From Ruminococcus sp. NK3A76 (lineage in GTDB: Bacteria; Bacillota; Clostridia; Oscillospirales; Ruminococcaceae), in assembly GCF_000686125.1 (NCBI RefSeq), contig NZ_JMMA01000002.1, positions 2,542,001-2,606,000 on the forward strand: a stretch of 64,000 nt of DNA, read 5' to 3'. Of this stretch, positions 26,729 to 41,221 are shown in pieces. The position numbers were made by a program, and so were the translations under genes. Position 1 is the first letter of the stretch; every line of letters begins with the position of its first letter. The notes below the pieces were generated by a model, which did not search any database, was not told the origin of the DNA, and saw only the letters and a program-made list of their open reading frames with translations.

Positions 26729-27185
26729 CAGGTAACAGGAGAAACGCTTCGCTCAGTGAATAGTGAATAGTGAAGAATGAATAGTTGAGGTGTGCGCCAA
26801 AGGCGCACATCCGAAGGGTCGAGGTGGCGCATGAGCCGACAAAGCCGGCTCGAAAGCCCCTCGGTGTACCCTATGGGAGCAAGAGTGCTCCCTTGAAGGC
26901 AAGCCGCCCCACATGATAGCTTCAAGAGTAGTCTCTCGTTATCCTTACGCTACAGTAGGGGGGCTTTCCGGTCGCCCCCCTGCGTCAGCGAAGCTGCCGC
27001 CACCCCCTTCGGGTTCACCCCCCACACGATGAGTTGAAGACGAAGACCGCCCGAATGGGCATCTCGTCGGCGTAAGCCGACACCACAACTGTTACCTGTT
27101 ACCTGTTAACTGTTAACTGACCAAGCGCCGCACCGGGACACCACAATTATGCATTATGCATTCTGCATTCTTAATTGATTGTGCA
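26728..27185. repeat. heptamer-bounded palindrome mosaic (copy R4)
   Basis: Starts with CAGGTAA and TGAATAG heptamers and ends with TGTTACC, TGTTAAC and ATTATGC arrays. Internal palindromes include GTGCGCCAAAGGCGCAC and GTCGGCGTAAGCCGAC. 27048-27125 is identical, inverted, to 22681-22758. Nothing else is seen between the esterase and the EAL gene apart from its promoter. Confidence 0.8.
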
Positions 27186-27263
27186 TTGTATAATGTTTCC
27201 AGTAAACTATTAACATTTAGATAAAATAATTATGACTAAAACGATAACTTGTTTTCAGCCATA

Positions 27264-27292: not shown

Positions 27293-27356
27293 GTCTTTGA
27301 TTAAAATATGCAAAATGCTTTTACATATATTATGCTGCATAAATGAGGGAATACTT

Positions 27357-29939
27357 ATGTTTGGAAAAGATGCAATACTGTGGAAAAAATATTTCGGCCT
27401 TGCATGGAACGAGATGATGGAGCTTGCCCCCGAAGTGGGCAGATATGCCATTTTTAAGGACTCTGCGACCTTCTGCCTCGATGCTAATGCAAAGCGCCTT
27501 ATGGGCTTTGAGAATGAGCCGTCTTATGATATGATATTATCGCTGATAAAGCGCCTTAAGGGGGATACCTCTGCCCATATAGCCGTAAAACAGCTTTTTG
27601 AAGACAGCGCCACGGCAATAGGCTTTATCTATGAGAAAAACGACCTCAGCGGCAGTAATACACTGTCTCTGTGTACTCTTAACCGCCTTATCACGACTAT
27701 GTCGCAGACGGATTCATTCTCGCTGCTCGCACTTATCCAGCTTGAAGAAAAATCGGGCAGACACGCCCTTTCGGATATGCATATCTATGAGATACTCACA
27801 GTCATAGTCGAGAATGTCCCGAAGGATTCGCTGATATCCAGCCTCGGGCAGGGTAAGCTGTGGCTCTATATCCCCGATTTCAAGGGCGATGAGATACTTT
27901 ACCTCACCGAGATAAAGAAAAAGATAGAAGCCTACCCCGTCACCTCGCTCGGTAAGGACGGCGACGGCAGAGTGACCTTCTCGGCAGGCTGTGCTGCATC
28001 TCTCTCCTCGCCTGTGCAGAGAATGAATACCGCAAAATTCACCCTCTTTGAAGCAGCAGCAAGAGGTCTTGGCACTATACTTGCGTATTCTGTTGACCGC
28101 TATGAGGATAAGAAAAACGAGTTCGCCCGTATCGAGCAGTTCTCAAATCTTATCGACTCAAATCTTTTCCGCTACCACTTCCAGCCGATAATCTCTGCCC
28201 ATACCGGCGAGATTATCGCTTACGAGCTGCTTATGCGCTCGGGCGGCGGTGTCGAGATGTATCCGCTTGAAATACTTGACTATGCAAAGAAATACGACAG
28301 GCTCTACGATATCGAGAAGGCTACATTCTTCAACGCCCTCCATATCGTCAGCGAGAACCAGCAGCAGTTCTCCTCAAAGAAGCTGTTTATAAATTCGATA
28401 AGCGACCATATCCTCACCAAGACCGACTGGGACAGACTGCTCTCCGACTACGGCGAGCTGCTTGAAAAGGTCGTCATAGAGCTCACCGAGCAGTCAGAGA
28501 TATCCGATGAACAGCTCGATACCGTCAAGAACCGTATAGCATTCTCGAATATGGAGCTCGCAATAGACGACTACGGCACAGGCTACTCAAATACCTCTAA
28601 CCTGCTGCGCTATAACCCGTCTTATGTCAAGATAGACCGCCAGCTCATAGCCGGTATCGACGGCAACCTTAAGATGCAGAAGCTCGTTTCGTCTATCATC
28701 GAGTATGTCCACAGCAACGGCTTCGCAGCCCTGGCAGAGGGCGTTGAGACTTACAGCGAGCTAAAGACCATGATAGGCCTCGGCTGTGACCTTATTCAGG
28801 GCTTCTATATCTCCAAGCCAAAGCCTTTCATACTCTATGAGGTGTCTGACAGCATAAGAGACGAGATAATCAAGATAAACCTCGAATTCTCCGATAATAT
28901 CGACAAGATATACCACCCCAAGAACTGCGAGACGGTAGACCTTATAAAGATAACCCAGGAGCACTATACAGTCATATTCGTCGAGACTCCGCAGGTCATC
29001 ATCGAGGGCAACGGCCGCCACGCCTGCAATATCAACGTCATCGTCAAGGACGGGCTTGAATGTACAGTCACCCTGCGTGGTGCTTTCTTCACGACGGATA
29101 AGGAAAATCCGCTGATATCCATAGGCTCGCAGAGCAAGGTCACACTCAATATCGAGGGCAGGAACGAGCTCAATTCAAAGGGTATCCACGTACCTGCATC
29201 CGCTGACCTGACTATCGCCGGCGACGGCACCCTCTATATCAAAACAGAGCAGGCGAGCGCCTACGCTATCGGCACCGACAGGTACAGCAGCCACGGCAAT
29301 ATCACAGTCCTTCTCGACGGCCATATCTCGCTCGAAGCAAACGGCGATAACAGCGTCGGCATCGGCGGCGGCATGAACGAGGAAAATAAGACGATAAGGA
29401 TACTTTCCGGCAACCTCAATGTCTCCTGCTCGGGCGGCACCTGCGTAGGTATCGGCGCTCACGAAGGCCCTTCAAGGATAGAGATGAGCGACTGCTCGGC
29501 ATCTGTCGAGATATCCTCCGCTGTATGTACCGGTGTTGGCACTCTCGAAGGCGATGCTGATATCGACCTTGAAAATATCGCATTGTCTACAAATCTCACA
29601 GGCATGACCCTCTGCGGTGTAGGCTCGGCAAATGCCGGCACAGGCAGCGCAGAGCTGCGCAACGGACGTATAGATATGATGCTTTGCGGCAGAACTATAA
29701 ACTGCCTCGGCACAAGAAACGGCAATATGGATATAGACATAAGCCACGCAGCTATCAAGTTCTACTGCGAGGGCGGCAGCATCTCAGGTATAGGCGACAG
29801 CGAGGGCGACGGAAACGTGCATATCTCCGAGAGCGAGGTATCTCTCGAATTCCGCACCGGCGACGGCTTCGGCCTTGGCAGCAAGAACGGCAAGCTCGAT
29901 ATAATCAACTGCCGTAAGGACGTAAGGATAAACGAATAA
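27357..29939 (+). CDS. degenerate GGDEF - EAL phosphodiesterase - beta-helix-like fusion
   Basis: 860 aa, cytoplasmic (no signal peptide or membrane helix). ATG 27357 follows GAGGGA; longer readings lack an SD. Residues about 130-250 look like a GGDEF fold that has lost its signature (GQGKLW in its place). The EAL domain (about 255-500) keeps the catalytic motifs: YELLMR, IELTE, IDDYGTGYSN, KIDRQL, AEGVE, QGFYISKP, so it should cleave c-di-GMP. From about 600 to the end there are repeats of about 33 residues with GIG/GVG turns (VGIGGGMNEENKTIRI, VGIGAHEGPSRIEM, CGVGSANAGTGSAEL, SGIGDSEGDGNVHI), resembling a right-handed beta-helix normally seen on surface proteins. Confidence 0.82.
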   Translation: MFGKDAILWKKYFGLAWNEMMELAPEVGRYAIFKDSATFCLDANAKRLMGFENEPSYDMILSLIKRLKGDTSAHIAVKQLFEDSATAIGFIYEKNDLSGSNTLSLCTLNRLITTMSQTDSFSLLALIQLEEKSGRHALSDMHIYEILTVIVENVPKDSLISSLGQGKLWLYIPDFKGDEILYLTEIKKKIEAYPVTSLGKDGDGRVTFSAGCAASLSSPVQRMNTAKFTLFEAAARGLGTILAYSVDRYEDKKNEFARIEQFSNLIDSNLFRYHFQPIISAHTGEIIAYELLMRSGGGVEMYPLEILDYAKKYDRLYDIEKATFFNALHIVSENQQQFSSKKLFINSISDHILTKTDWDRLLSDYGELLEKVVIELTEQSEISDEQLDTVKNRIAFSNMELAIDDYGTGYSNTSNLLRYNPSYVKIDRQLIAGIDGNLKMQKLVSSIIEYVHSNGFAALAEGVETYSELKTMIGLGCDLIQGFYISKPKPFILYEVSDSIRDEIIKINLEFSDNIDKIYHPKNCETVDLIKITQEHYTVIFVETPQVIIEGNGRHACNINVIVKDGLECTVTLRGAFFTTDKENPLISIGSQSKVTLNIEGRNELNSKGIHVPASADLTIAGDGTLYIKTEQASAYAIGTDRYSSHGNITVLLDGHISLEANGDNSVGIGGGMNEENKTIRILSGNLNVSCSGGTCVGIGAHEGPSRIEMSDCSASVEISSAVCTGVGTLEGDADIDLENIALSTNLTGMTLCGVGSANAGTGSAELRNGRIDMMLCGRTINCLGTRNGNMDIDISHAAIKFYCEGGSISGIGDSEGDGNVHISESEVSLEFRTGDGFGLGSKNGKLDIINCRKDVRINE

Positions 29940-34205: not shown

Positions 34206-35168
34206 CTATTCATTGTTCACTATTTCCGAGTACCCGTCGTCGTATGAGATGACTGTCGTGAATACTCCCCTCTTGTCGGCGTGGAGTATCAGCTTTGATA
34301 CCTCGCCGCTGTAGCTGAGACTGCCGCTGTTTATACTCACGGTGTCGCAGAGCTGCTCGTTTTTGAAGCCCTCGTAGGTGAAGCCCTTGTATACTCCCCC
34401 ACGCCTTGAAAAATACATCTTGTGCTTTAGCCCGAGTGTCGGCGATGAGAGCCACTGCCTGTCAAGCGGTATGTAGCGCTCACGCATGATGCCACGCCTT
34501 GTCGCTTCGGTGTCGGTATACTGATAGTCGTATGTGCCCTGAGTGCCCTGCATATGTATGCACGACACGGCGTTGTTGAAATTGTTGCCGTCTATCTCAG
34601 CGGTTATCAGCTCAGAGGAATAATCCCTCTGCGTCTGGCCGAGCTTTTTGATGTTGACACGGTTCATGCCCGTGATGTAGGGGTACTGCTCGTAGAGCTT
34701 TATAGATAGCGCCGCTATCGCCGTCCATACAGTGTCGCTCTCCTTGACGTAGATGTAAGATGCGCTGTCGCTTATCTGCTGGTAGCCGACATTCGGCATC
34801 GTGGGGTTTGCAGCGGCTATGTCGGCAAGCGTGCAGTCAAACATCATTCCCGGCAGCGCATCGCTCGTTGAGAGAGCCTTGGTAAAGCCGAAAGCCCTGC
34901 CCGAGACGATATCCCTGCCGGCGGTCTTTTTGTGGGATATGCCTGCTGTTCTGCCAAAGAATATATCCGTCTGCCCGTAGGCGAGCGTGACTGTGGTCAG
35001 GTCTTTTGTGTCAAGGCCGTCGTGCCAGATGCCGTCGGCGGTGAATTCGAGCGTGAAAAACGGCGTGTAGCGCTCCTTTGTGAGTGTGAGCGAGATTATC
35101 CTTGTAAAGAGCATTATGGCGCTTGCAGATGCGTTTTTTATCTGCATGGAGAAAGTGTCACTGCTCAA
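34206..35168 (-). CDS. phage baseplate hub/tail-like protein (C-terminus made by repeat)
   Basis: 320 aa, beta-rich, with FFGRTAGISHKKTAG and an LDRQWLSSPTLGLKH segment; overall length and the mid-protein DYSSELITAEIDGNNF resemble hub proteins of the XkdQ/gpD type, though this is tentative. The last residues (IVNNE) and the stop codon are written in the CACTATT-type heptamer array of repeat R5, so the original 3' end may be lost. The start overlaps nothing; the upstream gene ends at 35169. Confidence 0.5.
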   Translation of the reverse strand: MSSDTFSMQIKNASASAIMLFTRIISLTLTKERYTPFFTLEFTADGIWHDGLDTKDLTTVTLAYGQTDIFFGRTAGISHKKTAGRDIVSGRAFGFTKALSTSDALPGMMFDCTLADIAAANPTMPNVGYQQISDSASYIYVKESDTVWTAIAALSIKLYEQYPYITGMNRVNIKKLGQTQRDYSSELITAEIDGNNFNNAVSCIHMQGTQGTYDYQYTDTEATRRGIMRERYIPLDRQWLSSPTLGLKHKMYFSRRGGVYKGFTYEGFKNEQLCDTVSINSGSLSYSGEVSKLILHADKRGVFTTVISYDDGYSEIVNNE

Positions 35169-35504
35169 TCACACCACCTCCTCAAGCTCTATGGTGTATT
35201 CGCACATACCATCCTCGCAGGCGGTGCATTCGCCCTTTGAGAAGATAAGCACCGTATGCGTGTTACCGACTGTAAGCTCGACCGACGAGCCGATAAGTGC
35301 ATTGATATAGGTGCAGAAGCTCAGAAAGCCCTCAAAGGTCGTTCTGCCTTTGAGCGTATAGAAATTTTTTCTGATGCACGAAAGGCGCCTTATGGTATGG
35401 TAGTCTATCGTTGCAGTCTCGGCGACTTTGGTGTCTGTGCGAAAGCTGAGGCTGTAGAGCTTAAGCTCCTTTGAGCCGAGGGTGACTGTAAATTCGTTAT
35501 GCAT
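35169..35504 (-). CDS. small phage structural protein
   Basis: 111 aa from the ATG after AAAGGAGG. Beta-rich, with a CTACEDGMCEY cysteine pair near the C-terminus. Position between connector genes and the hub-like gene suggests a tail or head-completion role. No family recognised. Confidence 0.6.
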   Translation of the reverse strand: MHNEFTVTLGSKELKLYSLSFRTDTKVAETATIDYHTIRRLSCIRKNFYTLKGRTTFEGFLSFCTYINALIGSSVELTVGNTHTVLIFSKGECTACEDGMCEYTIELEEVV

Positions 35505-35517
35505 ATGTGTTCCTCCT

Positions 35518-35913
35518 TTACGGTGTATATATTTCGCTCTTTTCGGCAGTGAGCTGGCACTCGGCACGGGAGAGGGCGGCGTTTATCTTCATATCGTTTC
35601 TGAGCGTTGCATCATAGCCGTAGTGCAGCAGACCTTCCTTGGCGTATTCTGCCTTTGAGAGCAGCCTGTCACGGTCAGAGCAGTCGCCCTGCTTGCCGAG
35701 CAGCCGGCACGAGACTGTGTATTCATAGAGCCTTTTTCTGTCGTTTGACACAAAGTCAAAGCCCGTCTGCCTGCACTTTATCTCACGCAGCTCGACAAAG
35801 GCTATATCCTCGCCTTTGAGAGTTTCGCTCTTTGGTGTCGAGCCCACGGTCAGCACGACAAAGCCTGCTGTTCTTAAGATGCCTGTTATATCGCTTATCA
35901 TATCTTCCAGCAT
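35518..35913 (-). CDS. phage head-tail completion-type protein
   Basis: 131 aa. The N-terminal helix and strand pattern (MISDITGILRTAGFVVLTVG) and location after the connector gene fit minor capsid/tail completion proteins such as those acting on the head-tail joint. Function by position only. Confidence 0.55.
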   Translation of the reverse strand: MLEDMISDITGILRTAGFVVLTVGSTPKSETLKGEDIAFVELREIKCRQTGFDFVSNDRKRLYEYTVSCRLLGKQGDCSDRDRLLSKAEYAKEGLLHYGYDATLRNDMKINAALSRAECQLTAEKSEIYTP

Positions 35914-35919
35914 ATCACA

Positions 35920-36294
35920 TCACCCCTCTACCGCCGCAAAGCTGAAGCTATCGTCCACCCATATGTCGCTGATACAGGCTATTGCGTGCTCACGCAGCTT
36001 TTGAGCGTATTTGTATGCGTCGGTGTCCTTATAGTTCAGCGCCTGACGGCCGTCCTGTGTGCAGAGCGTCTTGTCGTTTATGAGCCGCATGAGCGTGTTG
36101 TCATACACCGCAACGGCAGCGCTTGCAAATTCCAGCCTTTCAAGGTCTGACACGACGACCGGGTCAACGGCGTGCTTGGCGATATAGAAGCAGGCGTTCT
36201 CTATCATATCGTCATAGTCATGGCGCTCGTCATCGGGTATGCCGCTAAGGCGCAGAAAAAGCATCATTACCTTTGTTCTGTCGATATAGACCAT
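35920..36294 (-). CDS. phage head-tail connector-type protein
   Basis: 124 aa, mostly helical, with FLRLSGIPDDERHDYDDMIENAC, the length and helix content expected of gp6-like connector proteins. It follows the capsid gene after a short hairpin-bearing gap. Function by position and fold impression. Confidence 0.6.
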   Translation of the reverse strand: MVYIDRTKVMMLFLRLSGIPDDERHDYDDMIENACFYIAKHAVDPVVVSDLERLEFASAAVAVYDNTLMRLINDKTLCTQDGRQALNYKDTDAYKYAQKLREHAIACISDIWVDDSFSFAAVEG

Positions 36295-36301
36295 TAGTTA
36301 A

Positions 36302-36342
36302 CCTCCTTTCCTGCCCCCGGGCGGGGGCAGGTTTTTTTTTTG
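36302..36342 (-). terminator. hairpin between capsid and connector genes
   Basis: CCTGCCCCC/GGGGGCAGG stem, loop GGGC-type, next to a T-run on the plus strand (A-run on the minus strand). It may process or partially stop the phage transcript after the capsid gene. Confidence 0.5.
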
Positions 36343-36354
36343 ATATCAGCAATA

Positions 36355-37335
36355 TCAGCTCGTTACGGTCTTGAGCACCTTTATTGCCTTGTCATAGAGC
36401 TTGGCAACACCGATATGAACTGAGCATACGACTTCCTTGTTCTGGGTAGCAAGTATCTTGTCGGTATCGACTATAACGTCGCCGCCGAAGTATATCTCGG
36501 CTGCCTTTGTGGAGTCGATGCCTATGATATCGCCCGAAGCTGCAAGAGAGGGGCACTTGATAAGAGTTACGCCGAAAGGTGTCACAGCTCTGCCGCTCTG
36601 CATATAGTTTGCGACTGTGCCCTTCATCTCATCGAGAGCAAGAATGCTTGCCATAACGGCAGGGCTGCAAAGCATAACGTCCATATTTGCATCTGTCATA
36701 GAGCTCCAGAATGTCGCAAGGTCGGAATAGGCTATCGAGTTGCCTGCGATAGTCGAGGGGGTGATGCCTGTAGAGATAGCTGTGGCTGCGAGGGAGTTAC
36801 AGCTTCTTGAAATATGTGCGCCGACAAGCTGCAGCACCACGCCGTAGGCCTCTATCCTCTGCTTTCTGACTGACTCGTAAGAGTTGAGGAGCTTTCTTGC
36901 ATACTTTGTAAGTCTTGTGGAGGAAGCGCCCAGCACCATAGATGTAGTTGCCACAGATGCGCCCTCGACTGCTGCGTCTGAGCCGGATTCTGCGATGACG
37001 AGCGAGCGGAAGTCAACGCCGTCAACGTATGTCACCGCTGCCGCTATATCGGGGAGAATGGAGTTATCATCAAGGCCTTTCTTTATCTGACGTCTTACAT
37101 ACTCGGGGAAAAGCACTGACGACTCGGTGGTGGAGAAGAACTTCTCGACCATATCGCAGTCACGGCCCTGTATTTTGATATCAAAGCGCTTGAGCTGTCT
37201 TTCAAAGGCATCAAGGCCTTCGAGGGGTGTGCCGATGTAGTTCTCGTCGGGGTCGAGCTCGGTGAGAGCCTTTGTGAAGCTCTTGTTTGTTATGTTGTAA
37301 AGTTCCTTTTCAAGTCTGATGTTTTCAAAATTCAT
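36355..37335 (-). CDS. phage major capsid protein
   Basis: 326 aa from the ATG after AAAGGAAG; the longer start includes that SD. An N-terminal helical arm is followed by FPEYVRRQIKKGL and a core (VTYVDGVDFRSLVIAESGSDA, SDLATFWSSMTDANMDVML) with the fold impression of HK97-type shells. It lies after the protease gene, the standard place for the capsid gene. Confidence 0.75.
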   Translation of the reverse strand: MNFENIRLEKELYNITNKSFTKALTELDPDENYIGTPLEGLDAFERQLKRFDIKIQGRDCDMVEKFFSTTESSVLFPEYVRRQIKKGLDDNSILPDIAAAVTYVDGVDFRSLVIAESGSDAAVEGASVATTSMVLGASSTRLTKYARKLLNSYESVRKQRIEAYGVVLQLVGAHISRSCNSLAATAISTGITPSTIAGNSIAYSDLATFWSSMTDANMDVMLCSPAVMASILALDEMKGTVANYMQSGRAVTPFGVTLIKCPSLAASGDIIGIDSTKAAEIYFGGDVIVDTDKILATQNKEVVCSVHIGVAKLYDKAIKVLKTVTS

Positions 37336-37352
37336 AGATATACTTCCTTTCA

Positions 37353-38213
37353 TTAGTTGTTGTTTATCCTGTAGCTTTCGTTTTTTGCCCTGACAGCTTC
37401 AAGCTGGGGGCTGGCGGGTGATGTAAGGCTCCTGGCAAGGCTTTTTTCAAGGCCTATGAGCTCACTTACGCTCATTCTGGATATGATATCCTCGCAGCAG
37501 TGCATTCCCTTGCCTGTCAGCTCAAAGAGCGCTTTTACACGGCCTGTGAGCTCTGTATACATAGCGCAGTGCTCGTCCTTAAGGCGGCTGTCCTCGCTCG
37601 TATGACTATCTGAGCAGGAGCTTTTGCCGAAGGTCTTTGTGACACCGGCGCTCACCTGTGCAGGCACTGCGACGAACGACCACTCGTAGGCATCTGTCGG
37701 CTCATCGAGCGAGACAAAGCACTTTTTGCCGCCGTATTCTCTGCCCTTGACGTGGGGGCAGGGGTCTTTATAGATATCCCTGCCGCAGATCGAGCAGGTC
37801 TTTTTGGAAACGGCACAGCTTATGCTGACTTCCTTTTTGATACCTGCATCTATCTCGTCGATGAGGGCTTTGTTGCGCTCTGTCCTGACCATATAGGCTC
37901 TTGCGGCAAGGCAGACGTAGGGGTCGCCGTATGATGTGAGCTTACCCTCCGGCCTGTCGATGAATGTCTCAAAGATACGGGCGGTCTGGTTCCTGCCCTT
38001 GGGGTCGTGGTCGAAGATGCCCGTCTTGCCGACAAAGAGGGCGGCGAGCTTTTCAAGTGAGCCTTCCGAGAAGCGCTCGCCGTCACGGTCTGTCTCGTTA
38101 TCGCAGAGAATGACCGGGAATGCGTATACACGCTCCTTGGTGAGAGGCTTTCTTGCAAAGGTGTTTATCTTGCTCAACACCTCGTCTGTGAGTTCAAACT
38201 CATAGCTGTTCAT
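37353..38213 (-). CDS. phage prohead protease with zinc-knuckle insert
   Basis: 286 aa. Candidate catalytic His in GIFDHDP and Ser in KKEVSISCAV match the S78-like prohead protease layout. A CSICG...DPCPH cysteine/histidine insert (about residues 143-155) probably binds zinc. The C-terminal 90 residues are helical and may act as scaffold. Its ATG overlaps the portal stop. Confidence 0.7.
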   Translation of the reverse strand: MNSYEFELTDEVLSKINTFARKPLTKERVYAFPVILCDNETDRDGERFSEGSLEKLAALFVGKTGIFDHDPKGRNQTARIFETFIDRPEGKLTSYGDPYVCLAARAYMVRTERNKALIDEIDAGIKKEVSISCAVSKKTCSICGRDIYKDPCPHVKGREYGGKKCFVSLDEPTDAYEWSFVAVPAQVSAGVTKTFGKSSCSDSHTSEDSRLKDEHCAMYTELTGRVKALFELTGKGMHCCEDIISRMSVSELIGLEKSLARSLTSPASPQLEAVRAKNESYRINNN

Positions 38214-39367
38214 TTGTCTTCTCCTTTCATTGTACTCAGACGAAGCTCTATCTCCTCGGCCTGCGAGTTATAGAGCCTTGCTCTTGCGAGCGCCTCCTCG
38301 TCCTGGAGGTTGATGTTTGCCCAGACTATCTCAAGCTCTGTATCCTCGCCTGCCAAGGTGAGGAAGGTCTTGCAGACACGCACGAGCACAGGGGTGAGCA
38401 GGCGGCGGTAGTATTCAAGCTCGCTTGTTAAGATATCTGCCTGCTGAGATGCCATACGCTCGGTGCTTGACCAGTTGAGGCCGAGCAGGAAGGGCGGGAT
38501 AGAGAGCTTGCTTATCATCTGCTCTATCAGCTGGCGGACAGGGATATTGGTGTCAATAAGGCCGCTCTCGGCACCTATGACCTTGATATCGACATCGCCG
38601 ACGGCCACGAAATCCTTCATGATGCCGTTTTTGGCTGACTGCATACCGTCTGTCCACTGGGCTGCCATATCCTTTGCACGCTGTGCGGCGAACTGCTTGT
38701 CCGCTTCACTTGACGGCTTATAGGTCACGGCGTAGCGGAGGTTGCCGGCACGGTCGAAGTTATTGCCGATACACGAATAGATAGTCGTGAGGATATCGGC
38801 AAGGGCTGGTATGCCCCTGAGTATCGAGCGGCCGGAGGGGCACTTGGGCGTGGGGTTTAAAGCCGTATAGAGGATACGCTCGGGGCTTTTGAAATCGACT
38901 GTTTTCCTGGTGCCGTTAAAGCGGAAAACAGGCTTTCCGGTGGTTTTGTCGGGCAGCACCTCGAAAAGCTCGGGGTCGCACACGAACAGCGAGGACATCT
39001 GCCCTGTCTTGCTGTCTACCGTATACTCGCCGATGCTCCTGCCATAGGTGAGCAGCGCATCAAGGTACATATCAGCAAAGGTCTGGAGCGACCTGCCCGA
39101 TATGCCGACCGGGACATTCAGTACGAACTCGTCTATCGCCTGCTGGCTTCTTTCATTCTCGCAGACGACCTTGAAATCGCCGGCAAGGCGGACTATCTTT
39201 GAGATACACGCATCAATTACCGGCACGTTGTCACGCAGCGACTCATACAGGCTGCTCTCGAAGCAGTCAGCGCTCCCTGTGACACGAAAGCCGTTTTTGA
39301 GCAGGCCGCCGCTTGAACCGAAAGCGTTTTCGCACGACTTTGGCTTTTGATTTCTGAATATGCTCAT
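38210..39367 (-). CDS. phage portal protein
   Basis: 385 aa. I chose the ATG 8 nt after AGGAG; two upstream in-frame ATGs lie in or before the SD. Portal features are the LDALLTYGRSIGEYTVD strand, the conserved IPPFLLGLNWSSTERMASQQ segment and the C-terminal helical wing. Somewhat short for the family at the C-terminus. Forms the DNA entry ring that docks terminase. Confidence 0.78.
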   Translation of the reverse strand: MSIFRNQKPKSCENAFGSSGGLLKNGFRVTGSADCFESSLYESLRDNVPVIDACISKIVRLAGDFKVVCENERSQQAIDEFVLNVPVGISGRSLQTFADMYLDALLTYGRSIGEYTVDSKTGQMSSLFVCDPELFEVLPDKTTGKPVFRFNGTRKTVDFKSPERILYTALNPTPKCPSGRSILRGIPALADILTTIYSCIGNNFDRAGNLRYAVTYKPSSEADKQFAAQRAKDMAAQWTDGMQSAKNGIMKDFVAVGDVDIKVIGAESGLIDTNIPVRQLIEQMISKLSIPPFLLGLNWSSTERMASQQADILTSELEYYRRLLTPVLVRVCKTFLTLAGEDTELEIVWANINLQDEEALARARLYNSQAEEIELRLSTMKGEDK

Positions 39368-39419
39368 TGGCATTTCTCCTTTCATAAGTTTATTTTCACA
39401 GGCATCAGGCTCAGGCGAA

Positions 39420-39487
39420 GACAGTTTTTTTGATATGCGCCGGCGGCGCACACCTTACCTGTCACCTGTTACCTGTTACCTGTTCAT
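39420..39487. repeat. short palindrome/heptamer insertion inside the phage module (copy R6)
   Basis: ATGCGCCGGCGGCGCA palindrome followed by TGTTACC heptamers, placed between the terminase stop and the portal SD. Confidence 0.7.
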
Positions 39488-39489
39488 GG

Positions 39490-40740
39490 CTACCTTTCAA
39501 GGGCAATTACAAAGAAGCTGTCTTCCTTAGCTCTTAAGTATTCCGACACGAAGTAGCGGATATCGTCCATTGCGTGATCGTTCTCCTTAAGAGGCACGTC
39601 ACGGCCTGTGCCGTCCCAGCGGTAGAGGGAGAATTCCCTGAGAGTGTCGGCGCAGGAGGAATGAAACCTTATACCGCCTGATAGCAGAGCGTCTGAGACA
39701 CGGCCGATACCAGCGAGCACGTCGTTTTTCGCCGTGGTGACTTTGAAACGGTCATGCCGCCTTATACATTCGATAAACGACGCTGCTGACGGATCGACTA
39801 TTATCCTTTCGATATCACGTCCGGCGCAGAGGTGTTCGAGGGCTTTGTAGTGCTCCTCATCTGTGCGGCGAATGCCTTCTCTGCGTGAGTCGTAGTAGTA
39901 CTCATTTATCCTGTACCACACACCGCCGCTCTCGCCCCAGAGCCCCATACTGGTGGGGTTGACTGTGCCATAGTCACAGCTGACGGCAAAGCGTGTCATG
40001 CCCTCGGGGAGAGTATCCGTAACTGAGAGCTTTCGGTCAAACATCGGGTAGACAAGCCCTTCGGCGCTGACCCAATGCCCAAGCACGAAGCGTTCATAGA
40101 AAACGCCGCTGTAGAGCCTGTGGTAGCGCTCCTTTATCGCCCGGGAAAGAGAGGGGTTGTCATCGAGCGTAAAGGTGAGGTAGAGAAGGTTTTTCTCATG
40201 TCTTTTGTCTATCCACTCACGTTTGAGCCAGTGGGCGCTGCTGTCGGGGTTACAGTTCAGCCAGAGCTTCGAGCCTGAAACAGAGCAGCGTGCTATCGCC
40301 TGCTCTATGAAGCTCCTCGGCATTAGTGCGGCCTCGTCGAGCAGCACGCCGGCAAGCGTGATACCCTGGATAAGTGATGCGGAGGATTCGTCCTTGCCGC
40401 CGAAAAGGTAGTAGCGGTTTTTGCAAAGGCCACGGGAGACATCGAAGTAGTTCTTTGATGCCTTGACATCGACGGTGTAGTTCATCTTCCTTGCAAAGGC
40501 GATGAGAGGGTCGATGACGTTGCGGCGAAGCGATGTGACCGTCTTGCCGCAGAGTGCGAAATTGCGCCCGTTGTAGCGTGTCATGGACCATATGAGGAAG
40601 GACTGCGACATAGCCATCGTCTTGCCGCTTCTGACTGAGCCGTCGCAGAGCACGGCATCGTACTTTTTGAATGAAGGATCCCGCCACCAGTTGAGAAGCA
40701 GCTTCTGCTTGGGGGAATAAAAGAGCTTATGCCTGCTCAT
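39490..40740 (-). CDS. terL: phage terminase large subunit
   Basis: 416 aa. Walker A GSVRSGKT, Walker B GVLLDEAALM, the coupling motif NCNPDSSAHW and nuclease acidic residues (SCDYGTVNPTS, IIVDPSA, DHAMDDIRYF) are intact, in the PBSX-like group. The ATG overlaps the end of terS and follows GAGGG. Packages DNA into proheads; nothing indicates inactivation. Confidence 0.88.
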   Translation of the reverse strand: MSRHKLFYSPKQKLLLNWWRDPSFKKYDAVLCDGSVRSGKTMAMSQSFLIWSMTRYNGRNFALCGKTVTSLRRNVIDPLIAFARKMNYTVDVKASKNYFDVSRGLCKNRYYLFGGKDESSASLIQGITLAGVLLDEAALMPRSFIEQAIARCSVSGSKLWLNCNPDSSAHWLKREWIDKRHEKNLLYLTFTLDDNPSLSRAIKERYHRLYSGVFYERFVLGHWVSAEGLVYPMFDRKLSVTDTLPEGMTRFAVSCDYGTVNPTSMGLWGESGGVWYRINEYYYDSRREGIRRTDEEHYKALEHLCAGRDIERIIVDPSAASFIECIRRHDRFKVTTAKNDVLAGIGRVSDALLSGGIRFHSSCADTLREFSLYRWDGTGRDVPLKENDHAMDDIRYFVSEYLRAKEDSFFVIALER

Positions 40741-41221
40741 CGACATCACCCTCCTGCGCTGCCTGCTCAAAGGCTCTAACAAATTCATCACCCTCGGATA
40801 TGCCACGGATACGCTCATCAAGCGAGACAAGCTGCTCGATAGCCTTAAGGCGGTCAAAGAACTTTATCTCGACACCGCCGCCCTTGACACGCTTTATCTC
40901 GGAAACTGAGAAAAGGTCGGCGCCGTCAAAGCGTGAGTAGTTCTCCTCATCGCCTGAGAGGGCGAGCTCGACTGCGTCATTGACACGGCCAAAGGCGATA
41001 CGTTCAAGGCCTTCCCTTGCACGCATGAGCGTATACTCACGGGAAGCGTAGTATTTAGCAAGGCGCTTTTGCACCCTGCGTGAGAGCGAGAGCCGTATGC
41101 CTGCGCTCTCATCTATACCCGTGCGGCGTGCAGCCTCACGGGGCGAGCAGCAGGAGAAAAGCTCCAGACAGAAGCGCTCGACAGTCTCGGGCGGAAGGCG
41201 TGGCTTTTTTGATATAAGCAT
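40727..41221 (-). CDS. terS: phage terminase small subunit
   Basis: 164 aa. An N-terminal helix-turn-helix region (CSPREAARRTGIDESAGIRL) recognises DNA ends; a helical middle and an acidic C-terminus follow. SD AAAGGAG upstream. First gene of the module, directly after repeat R7. Confidence 0.75.
   Translation of the reverse strand: MLISKKPRLPPETVERFCLELFSCCSPREAARRTGIDESAGIRLSLSRRVQKRLAKYYASREYTLMRAREGLERIAFGRVNDAVELALSGDEENYSRFDGADLFSVSEIKRVKGGGVEIKFFDRLKAIEQLVSLDERIRGISEGDEFVRAFEQAAQEGDVDEQA

Follow-up and report, generated by a model that had tools for sequence, protein, structure and literature searches.

The window, a 64,000-nucleotide stretch of the Ruminococcus sp. NK3A76 genome, contains a gene for an 860-residue protein in which PAS-like, degenerate GGDEF-like and EAL domains are followed by a predicted beta-helix (Table 1). 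The EAL domain was the only one to score above the Pfam cut-off in this protein, and the mutual placement of the domains in the full-length model was uncertain (pTM 0.48). A long intergenic region at 26740-27200 carries short direct and inverted repeats (e.g., gttacctgttacctgttaactgttaactg) and, by eye, resembles a small repeat element. Elsewhere in the window, at 34206-41221 on the minus strand, lie closely packed frames, some of which, by eye, look like genes for the tail or structural proteins of a phage.

Table 1. Features of the EAL-beta-helix gene (window coordinates)
Feature	Position	Strand	Basis
Likely ribosome-binding site, GAGGG, 7 nt 5' of the ATG	27345..27349	+	sequence inspection
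Gene for the 860-residue PAS-like/degenerate GGDEF/EAL/beta-helix protein	27357..29939	+	ATG start; translation
PAS-like domain, residues ~27-93	27435..27635	+	strand/helix order in full-length model
Degenerate GGDEF-like domain, residues ~108-236	27678..28064	+	fold alignment with 5m3c
EAL c-di-GMP phosphodiesterase domain (predicted), residues 260-488	28134..28820	+	PF00563, E 4e-45
Alpha-helical linker, residues 498-514	28848..28898	+	full-length model; lower confidence in domain-alone model
Beta-helix domain (predicted), residues 525-858	28929..29930	+	AF2 pLDDT 94.3; fold match 4phb
Eight GIG-type turns, 28-31 residues apart	29265..29879	+	repeat analysis

The PF00563 match scored 154.5 bits against a cut-off of 31.3, in agreement with the sequence-only reading, which had described a complete EAL domain. 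Ten positions that we take to be the catalytic set (ExL, N, ExxE, DD, K, EGVE and Q; residues E290, N346, E375, E378, D404, D405, K425, E461, E464 and Q481) were invariant in all 61 aligned relatives, a conservation from which an active enzyme would be expected. The 61 rows were left from 81 possible ones after removal of ten loci that were truncated or had a short N terminus and then of near-copies above 88% identity. Judged by these residues, the 860-residue protein is predicted to be a catalytically competent c-di-GMP phosphodiesterase.

The part in front of the EAL domain had been read as a degenerate GGDEF, and this view holds. The GGDEF-EAL structure 5m3c aligned with residues 100-498 (Z 30.9, rmsd 8.5, 393 residues aligned), and the GG[DE][EF] motif, sought in the first 300 residues, was found in none of the 61 homologues. 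The 860-residue protein has GQGKL at the site, lacks the GG[DE]EF signature by which an active diguanylate cyclase is recognised, and gave no Pfam GGDEF match. A PAS-like domain, which the sequence-only reading had overlooked, precedes it; this region gave no Pfam match either. The PAS-GGDEF-EAL structure 5xge aligned with residues 14-491 (Z 26.5, 455 residues aligned) at an rmsd of 23.0, and the arrangement of the domains therefore differs.

The two proteins of known structure, PA0861 (5xge) and PA0575 (5m3c), resemble the 860-residue protein in the order of their (PAS-like), GGDEF-like and EAL domains, and the 860-residue protein keeps the catalytic EAL residues. Unlike them, the 860-residue protein is without the GGDEF signature and carries some 334 residues of predicted beta-helix behind the EAL domain. 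YkuI has an accessory domain C-terminal to EAL, in an order like that of the 860-residue protein, and its structure, 2w27, matched residues 259-513 (Z 24.1). In passages of a review of c-di-GMP sensing (PMC8846402), the YkuI accessory domain is given as CACHE-like, whereas that of the 860-residue protein is a predicted beta-helix; the same passages have YkuI_C as thought to be intracellular.

Residues 497-860, modelled alone with AlphaFold, were predicted with high confidence (pLDDT 94.3, pTM 0.90) and were mostly strand. Structure prediction of the C-terminal region, one of the checks proposed with the sequence-only reading, thus returned a beta-helix and not a non-helical fold. The GIG-type turns stand at residues 637, 668, 698, 726, 754, 783, 811 and 839, and autocorrelation of the sequence at lag 28 gave z = 6.1, as opposed to 4.05 for the 99.9% quantile of the maximum z across lags when the sequence was shuffled 1000 times. 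The repeat period is accordingly about 28 residues (spacing 28-31), shorter than the 33 or so estimated from the letters, and the beta-helix, at about 334 residues, is longer than the 250 residues of repeats that had been proposed. Its profile-matched span was 315-345 residues in 74 of 76 EAL-helix proteins, some of which have an extra tail behind it; this nearly fixed length would suit a structural role just as much as a regulatory one.

The composition of the domain bears on what it might bind. It is net acidic, with 44 D/E as opposed to 24 K/R, so that binding of a polyanion is not favoured unless bridged by metal. It contains no tryptophan. Tryptophan scarcity was considered as an argument against glycan binding and dropped, because the four PF14262 domains read from NK3A76 are likewise without tryptophan.

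By profile comparison, the clearest relatives of the helix outside EAL proteins are secreted clostridial proteins with GIG repeats (Beta_helix_3, PF18889; some with SLH or List_Bact repeats), exemplified by L091-L099 and L075. An alignment with ten such domains in hhalign gave a probability of 99.2% (E 3.4e-19, 239 columns), and the homology covers the cap and the GIG turns. Repeats of this kind had been called familiar from clostridial surface proteins, which these matches substantiate. The secreted proteins are exported, vary in architecture and have no EAL domain, whereas the 860-residue protein has one and shows no export signal.

The top-ranked solved fold among 207 aligned chains was 4phb, the structure of Cthe_2159 (Z 22.8, rmsd 2.1, 215 residues aligned, 19% identity). 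The next chain reached Z 21.2, the sister entry 4peu ranked seventh (Z 20.4), and many other beta-helices scored Z 17-21, so that the top position of Cthe_2159 carries modest weight. Foldseek alone found no match to the helix model at E <= 0.001; the fold was assigned from the AlphaFold confidence and a second look with VIA-align. The best sequence match to a solved chain was weak (4peu, E 0.0081 over the whole sequence and 0.13 for the best stretch).

The Cthe_2159 family (PF14262; 4peu, 4phb) consists of surface or secreted proteins. Its right-handed beta-helix resembles the predicted fold of the helix domain; four NK3A76 PF14262 domains differ from the latter in having no GIG turns by eye, and they aligned with it in hhalign only over the N-terminal cap (78% probability, 80 columns). 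The frames of these four (G000:C2: 2134209-2135957, 1579801-1580691, 1260167-1260994 and 466560-467516) are separate from the EAL-helix proteins, and all ten PF14262 matches in the genome lie away from EAL-helix genes. According to passages of PMC6712302, Cthe_2159-type domains bind cellulose and polygalacturonic acid.

The helix domain of the 860-residue protein has no Pfam or NCBIfam name. Pfam matches to a set of 44 helix domains were isolated: each family hit a single domain at most, with TruB-C_2 (4.5e-4, one member) as the strongest. PF14262 was not among the 21 families listed for them at E up to 10, and PF18889 was not listed for the 44 EAL-linked domains; EAL-linked helices are thus filed in neither family. 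The 44 domains came from 50 distinct matches at E <= 1e-19: a 75% identity filter left 47, and three contig-edge fragments were then omitted.

We asked how common the fusion is. The full-length protein was present in all seven genus genomes, NK3A76 included, and the other six copies were 68-78% identical. Of the 18 EAL places in the NK3A76 genome, three have a beta-helix, namely the 860-residue protein and two shorter paralogues. A family sample of 297 genomes contained beta-helix matches at 81 places in 62 genomes; at 76 of these places the helix shared a frame with an EAL domain, in every case behind it, and the search for further fusions that had been suggested with the sequence-only reading was thereby answered. 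The remaining five comprised three at contig ends (one retaining an EAL tail), one fragment, and the secreted-looking L075.

Beyond the family, an order sample of 295 genomes gave weak matches at 10 places in nine genomes. Nine of these frames were inspected: seven had signal-peptide-like starts by eye, and two were cut at the start of the locus. A class sample of 391 genomes contained strong matches in nine genomes of two further families, with an EAL domain in all six fetched loci, and weak beta-helix matches in two more genomes. A scan of named genomes yielded 369 confirmed relatives, the best 80 of which match both the EAL and the helix parts (a few are truncated) and include R. albus 8, KH2T6, AR67, R. 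bicirculans 80/3 and R. flavefaciens MAGs. As these best 80 of 369 were chosen by similarity to EAL and helix, they provide no independent test of the fusion.

The protein has no transmembrane segment, its 19-residue Kyte-Doolittle mean nowhere exceeding 1.08, and, by eye, no signal peptide at its N terminus, as had been noted from the letters. A start at the in-frame TTG at 27249 would lengthen the protein by 36 residues, among them a hydrophobic stretch (Kyte-Doolittle mean 2.18), and is the one point in favour of an exported protein or of an annotation or assembly artefact. This extension is not conserved, because the open frames of two congeners are only 864 and 861 residues long. EAL and GGDEF-type domains function in the cytoplasm. 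Given these points and the same fusion in many genomes, we consider the chance of export or artefact negligible. The fusion is real and conserved; far from being unique to this genome through an assembly error, it was found at full length in all seven genus genomes. Since it is kept in many relatives, it is probably a real regulatory device.

At least 90 places in the family sample have an EAL domain of this kind (E <= 1e-45), 76 with the helix and 14 without. The helix-less sisters stop soon after the EAL domain: 18-47 residues beyond it in the 13 that were read, and 32 residues in the fourteenth, according to its tree label. In a tree of 102 EAL domains, 80 of them followed by the helix, built by a quick method from domains of >=190 residues at fetched loci only and with long outgroup branches, the helix label needed three changes, compared with a mean of 20.1 after shuffling. 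Well-supported branches force at least two changes, and the outgroup contains eight of the 18 EAL places of NK3A76. The pattern fits a single gain followed either by two losses or by one loss and one regain.

The N-terminal parts of these proteins differ. The NK3A76 paralogues have a short one, about 90-100 residues ahead of the EAL domain. In L062 and L070, a LacI-type sensor (Peripla_BP_3) and a GGDEF domain are fused ahead of EAL-helix (Pfam), and in L065 and L068 a GGDEF domain precedes it without a sensor named by Pfam; the start of L065 resembles membrane segments by eye. On the evidence of these sequences, EAL-helix is the constant core and the N-terminal part is variable; as judged from the EAL tree, the helix was probably gained once and then retained during N-terminal domain swaps.

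Purifying selection on the helix was evident in all 12 pairs compared (dN/dS 0.08-0.28), and the value for EAL (0.02-0.12) was the lower one in each pair, with several dS values near saturation. Mean identity to the 860-residue protein was 0.39 for the helix as opposed to 0.61 for EAL. Purifying selection weaker than that on EAL would suit an input or interaction domain.

The neighbourhoods of EAL-helix genes contained one recurrent partner. Of 66 named loci whose end is complete and whose flank is >=900 nt, 13 (L131, L137, L142, L148, L151, L152, L155, L159, L163, L166, L167, L175 and L177) have behind EAL-helix, on the same strand, a gene of one LacI-type/GGDEF cluster, its start lying 19-315 nt past the last sense codon. 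Twelve of the 13 contain GG[DE]EF, and the R. albus 8 copy (L155), the sole one scanned with Pfam, has Peripla_BP_3 and GGDEF. The GGDEF cluster was the only one to recur in the flanks of more than eight of the 80 named loci, namely 16, in three of which the member stands elsewhere or is a loose relative. Loci like those of R. albus and R. bicirculans account for most cases of the downstream cyclase, perhaps as the outcome of a few events only. In part of the family, EAL-helix thus appears to be linked to LacI-type sensing and c-di-GMP synthesis. No cyclase gene adjoins the gene at 27357-29939, and its tested neighbours each occur in three or fewer of the 80 named loci; no operon partner was therefore found for it. 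At L126:7848-9335, a gene that by eye resembles a 4-alpha-glucanotransferase lies 30 nt behind the EAL-helix gene.

The NK3A76 genome has seven c-di-GMP-I riboswitches above the cut-off. By eye, secreted-looking proteins of 880-1062 residues lie behind three of them, a lipoprotein-like frame and then a secreted-looking one lie behind a fourth, and the frames behind the remaining three do not resemble secreted proteins. With four of seven thus placed, surface adhesion would be one likely output, not the sole one. Five of the seven lie at G000:C2:2062000-2082651 (L245, L246), four of these ahead of secreted- or lipoprotein-like frames. Four proteins of this cluster share, by eye, the C-terminal end KTISKL.KGKTYYVKVR.YK.

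We tentatively favour a cytoplasmic phosphodiesterase whose activity or position is controlled by the C-terminal beta-helix as an input domain, perhaps a glycan-binding one. The helix may derive from a secreted repeat protein, may have been added about once behind an ancestral EAL domain, and may now serve as an intracellular regulatory input. A glycan, another repetitive polymer or an oligosaccharide would bind along it, and binding would alter the geometry of the EAL dimer via the linker helix 498-514 and, with it, the breakdown of c-di-GMP. A second input would come from the N-terminal parts, PAS/degenerate GGDEF or LacI-type. A glycan-responsive input is the role that we infer for the helix, and docking or dimer control is nearly as credible as ligand sensing.

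The helix could instead be a protein-protein platform that recruits the phosphodiesterase to a target or a membrane complex for local removal of c-di-GMP, in the manner of a trigger phosphodiesterase. Bactofilins are cytoplasmic beta-helices, and the nearly fixed length of the domain, its faster evolution than EAL under purifying selection, and its position behind EAL in 76 of 76 cases would all suit a docking role. Trigger phosphodiesterases are an established concept (PMC5052742). Against docking, no partner gene was found for the locus at 27357-29939, only the GGDEF cluster recurs in more than eight of the 80 named flanks, and the clearest relatives are secreted repeat proteins, with Cthe_2159 as the top fold among the 207 chains aligned. 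On balance, docking is possible, if short of probable. The linker helix and the near-constant helix length are equally what one would see in a ligand-free cap or dimerisation domain that stabilises the EAL dimer or the protein, EAL enzymes acting as dimers (compare PMC5301497). Yet 14 close sister EALs among the at least 90 places manage without the helix, and the helix diverges faster than EAL (identities as above), which leaves a purely structural role improbable.

The sequence-only reading had proposed that the helix binds cytoplasmic glycogen and couples c-di-GMP breakdown to carbon storage. NK3A76 has two matches to glycogen synthase models, PMC9530166 reports that c-di-GMP controls glycogen debranching in Streptomyces, and the L126 gene is 4-alpha-glucanotransferase-like (by eye); among the downstream genes inspected, however, L126 was the only one to point to alpha-glucan metabolism by eye. 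Co-occurrence with glycogen synthase was tried as evidence and proved uninformative. Genomes with glgA numbered 257 of 297 in the family (59 of the 62 that match the helix and 198 of the 235 that do not, as raw counts that ignore kinship and completeness), and since the gene is nearly universal its co-occurrence with the helix does not discriminate. Glycogen as the ligand has no specific support, and a glycogen sensor seems to us very improbable.

Beyond the favoured reading of a helix as input domain, one may envisage a class of intracellular glycan sensors in which a surface-type beta-helix, turned inward once, reports cytosolic or imported plant-derived glycan to c-di-GMP breakdown. LacI-type sensors would drive the opposing cyclase, and adhesion would be switched by sugar supply in gut Ruminococcus-type bacteria. 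Taken as a whole, this extended scheme is rather unlikely. Sequence and model give good support to the fusion, to its conservation and to the predicted fold, and the function of the helix would be that of a glycan-responsive input, a docking platform or a dimer cap.

A beta-helix is not named among sensory domains in passages of the c-di-GMP sensing review (PMC8846402). None of the titles and abstract starts listed from the open literature, subscription papers and preprints aside, described an EAL-beta-helix fusion, which is not proof of absence. Accessory domains reveal what an EAL enzyme listens to. With a domain akin to surface repeat proteins and to a polysaccharide-binding fold, the conserved EAL-helix family of Ruminococcus-type gut bacteria would tie sugar supply directly, and in a testable way, to adhesion under c-di-GMP control.
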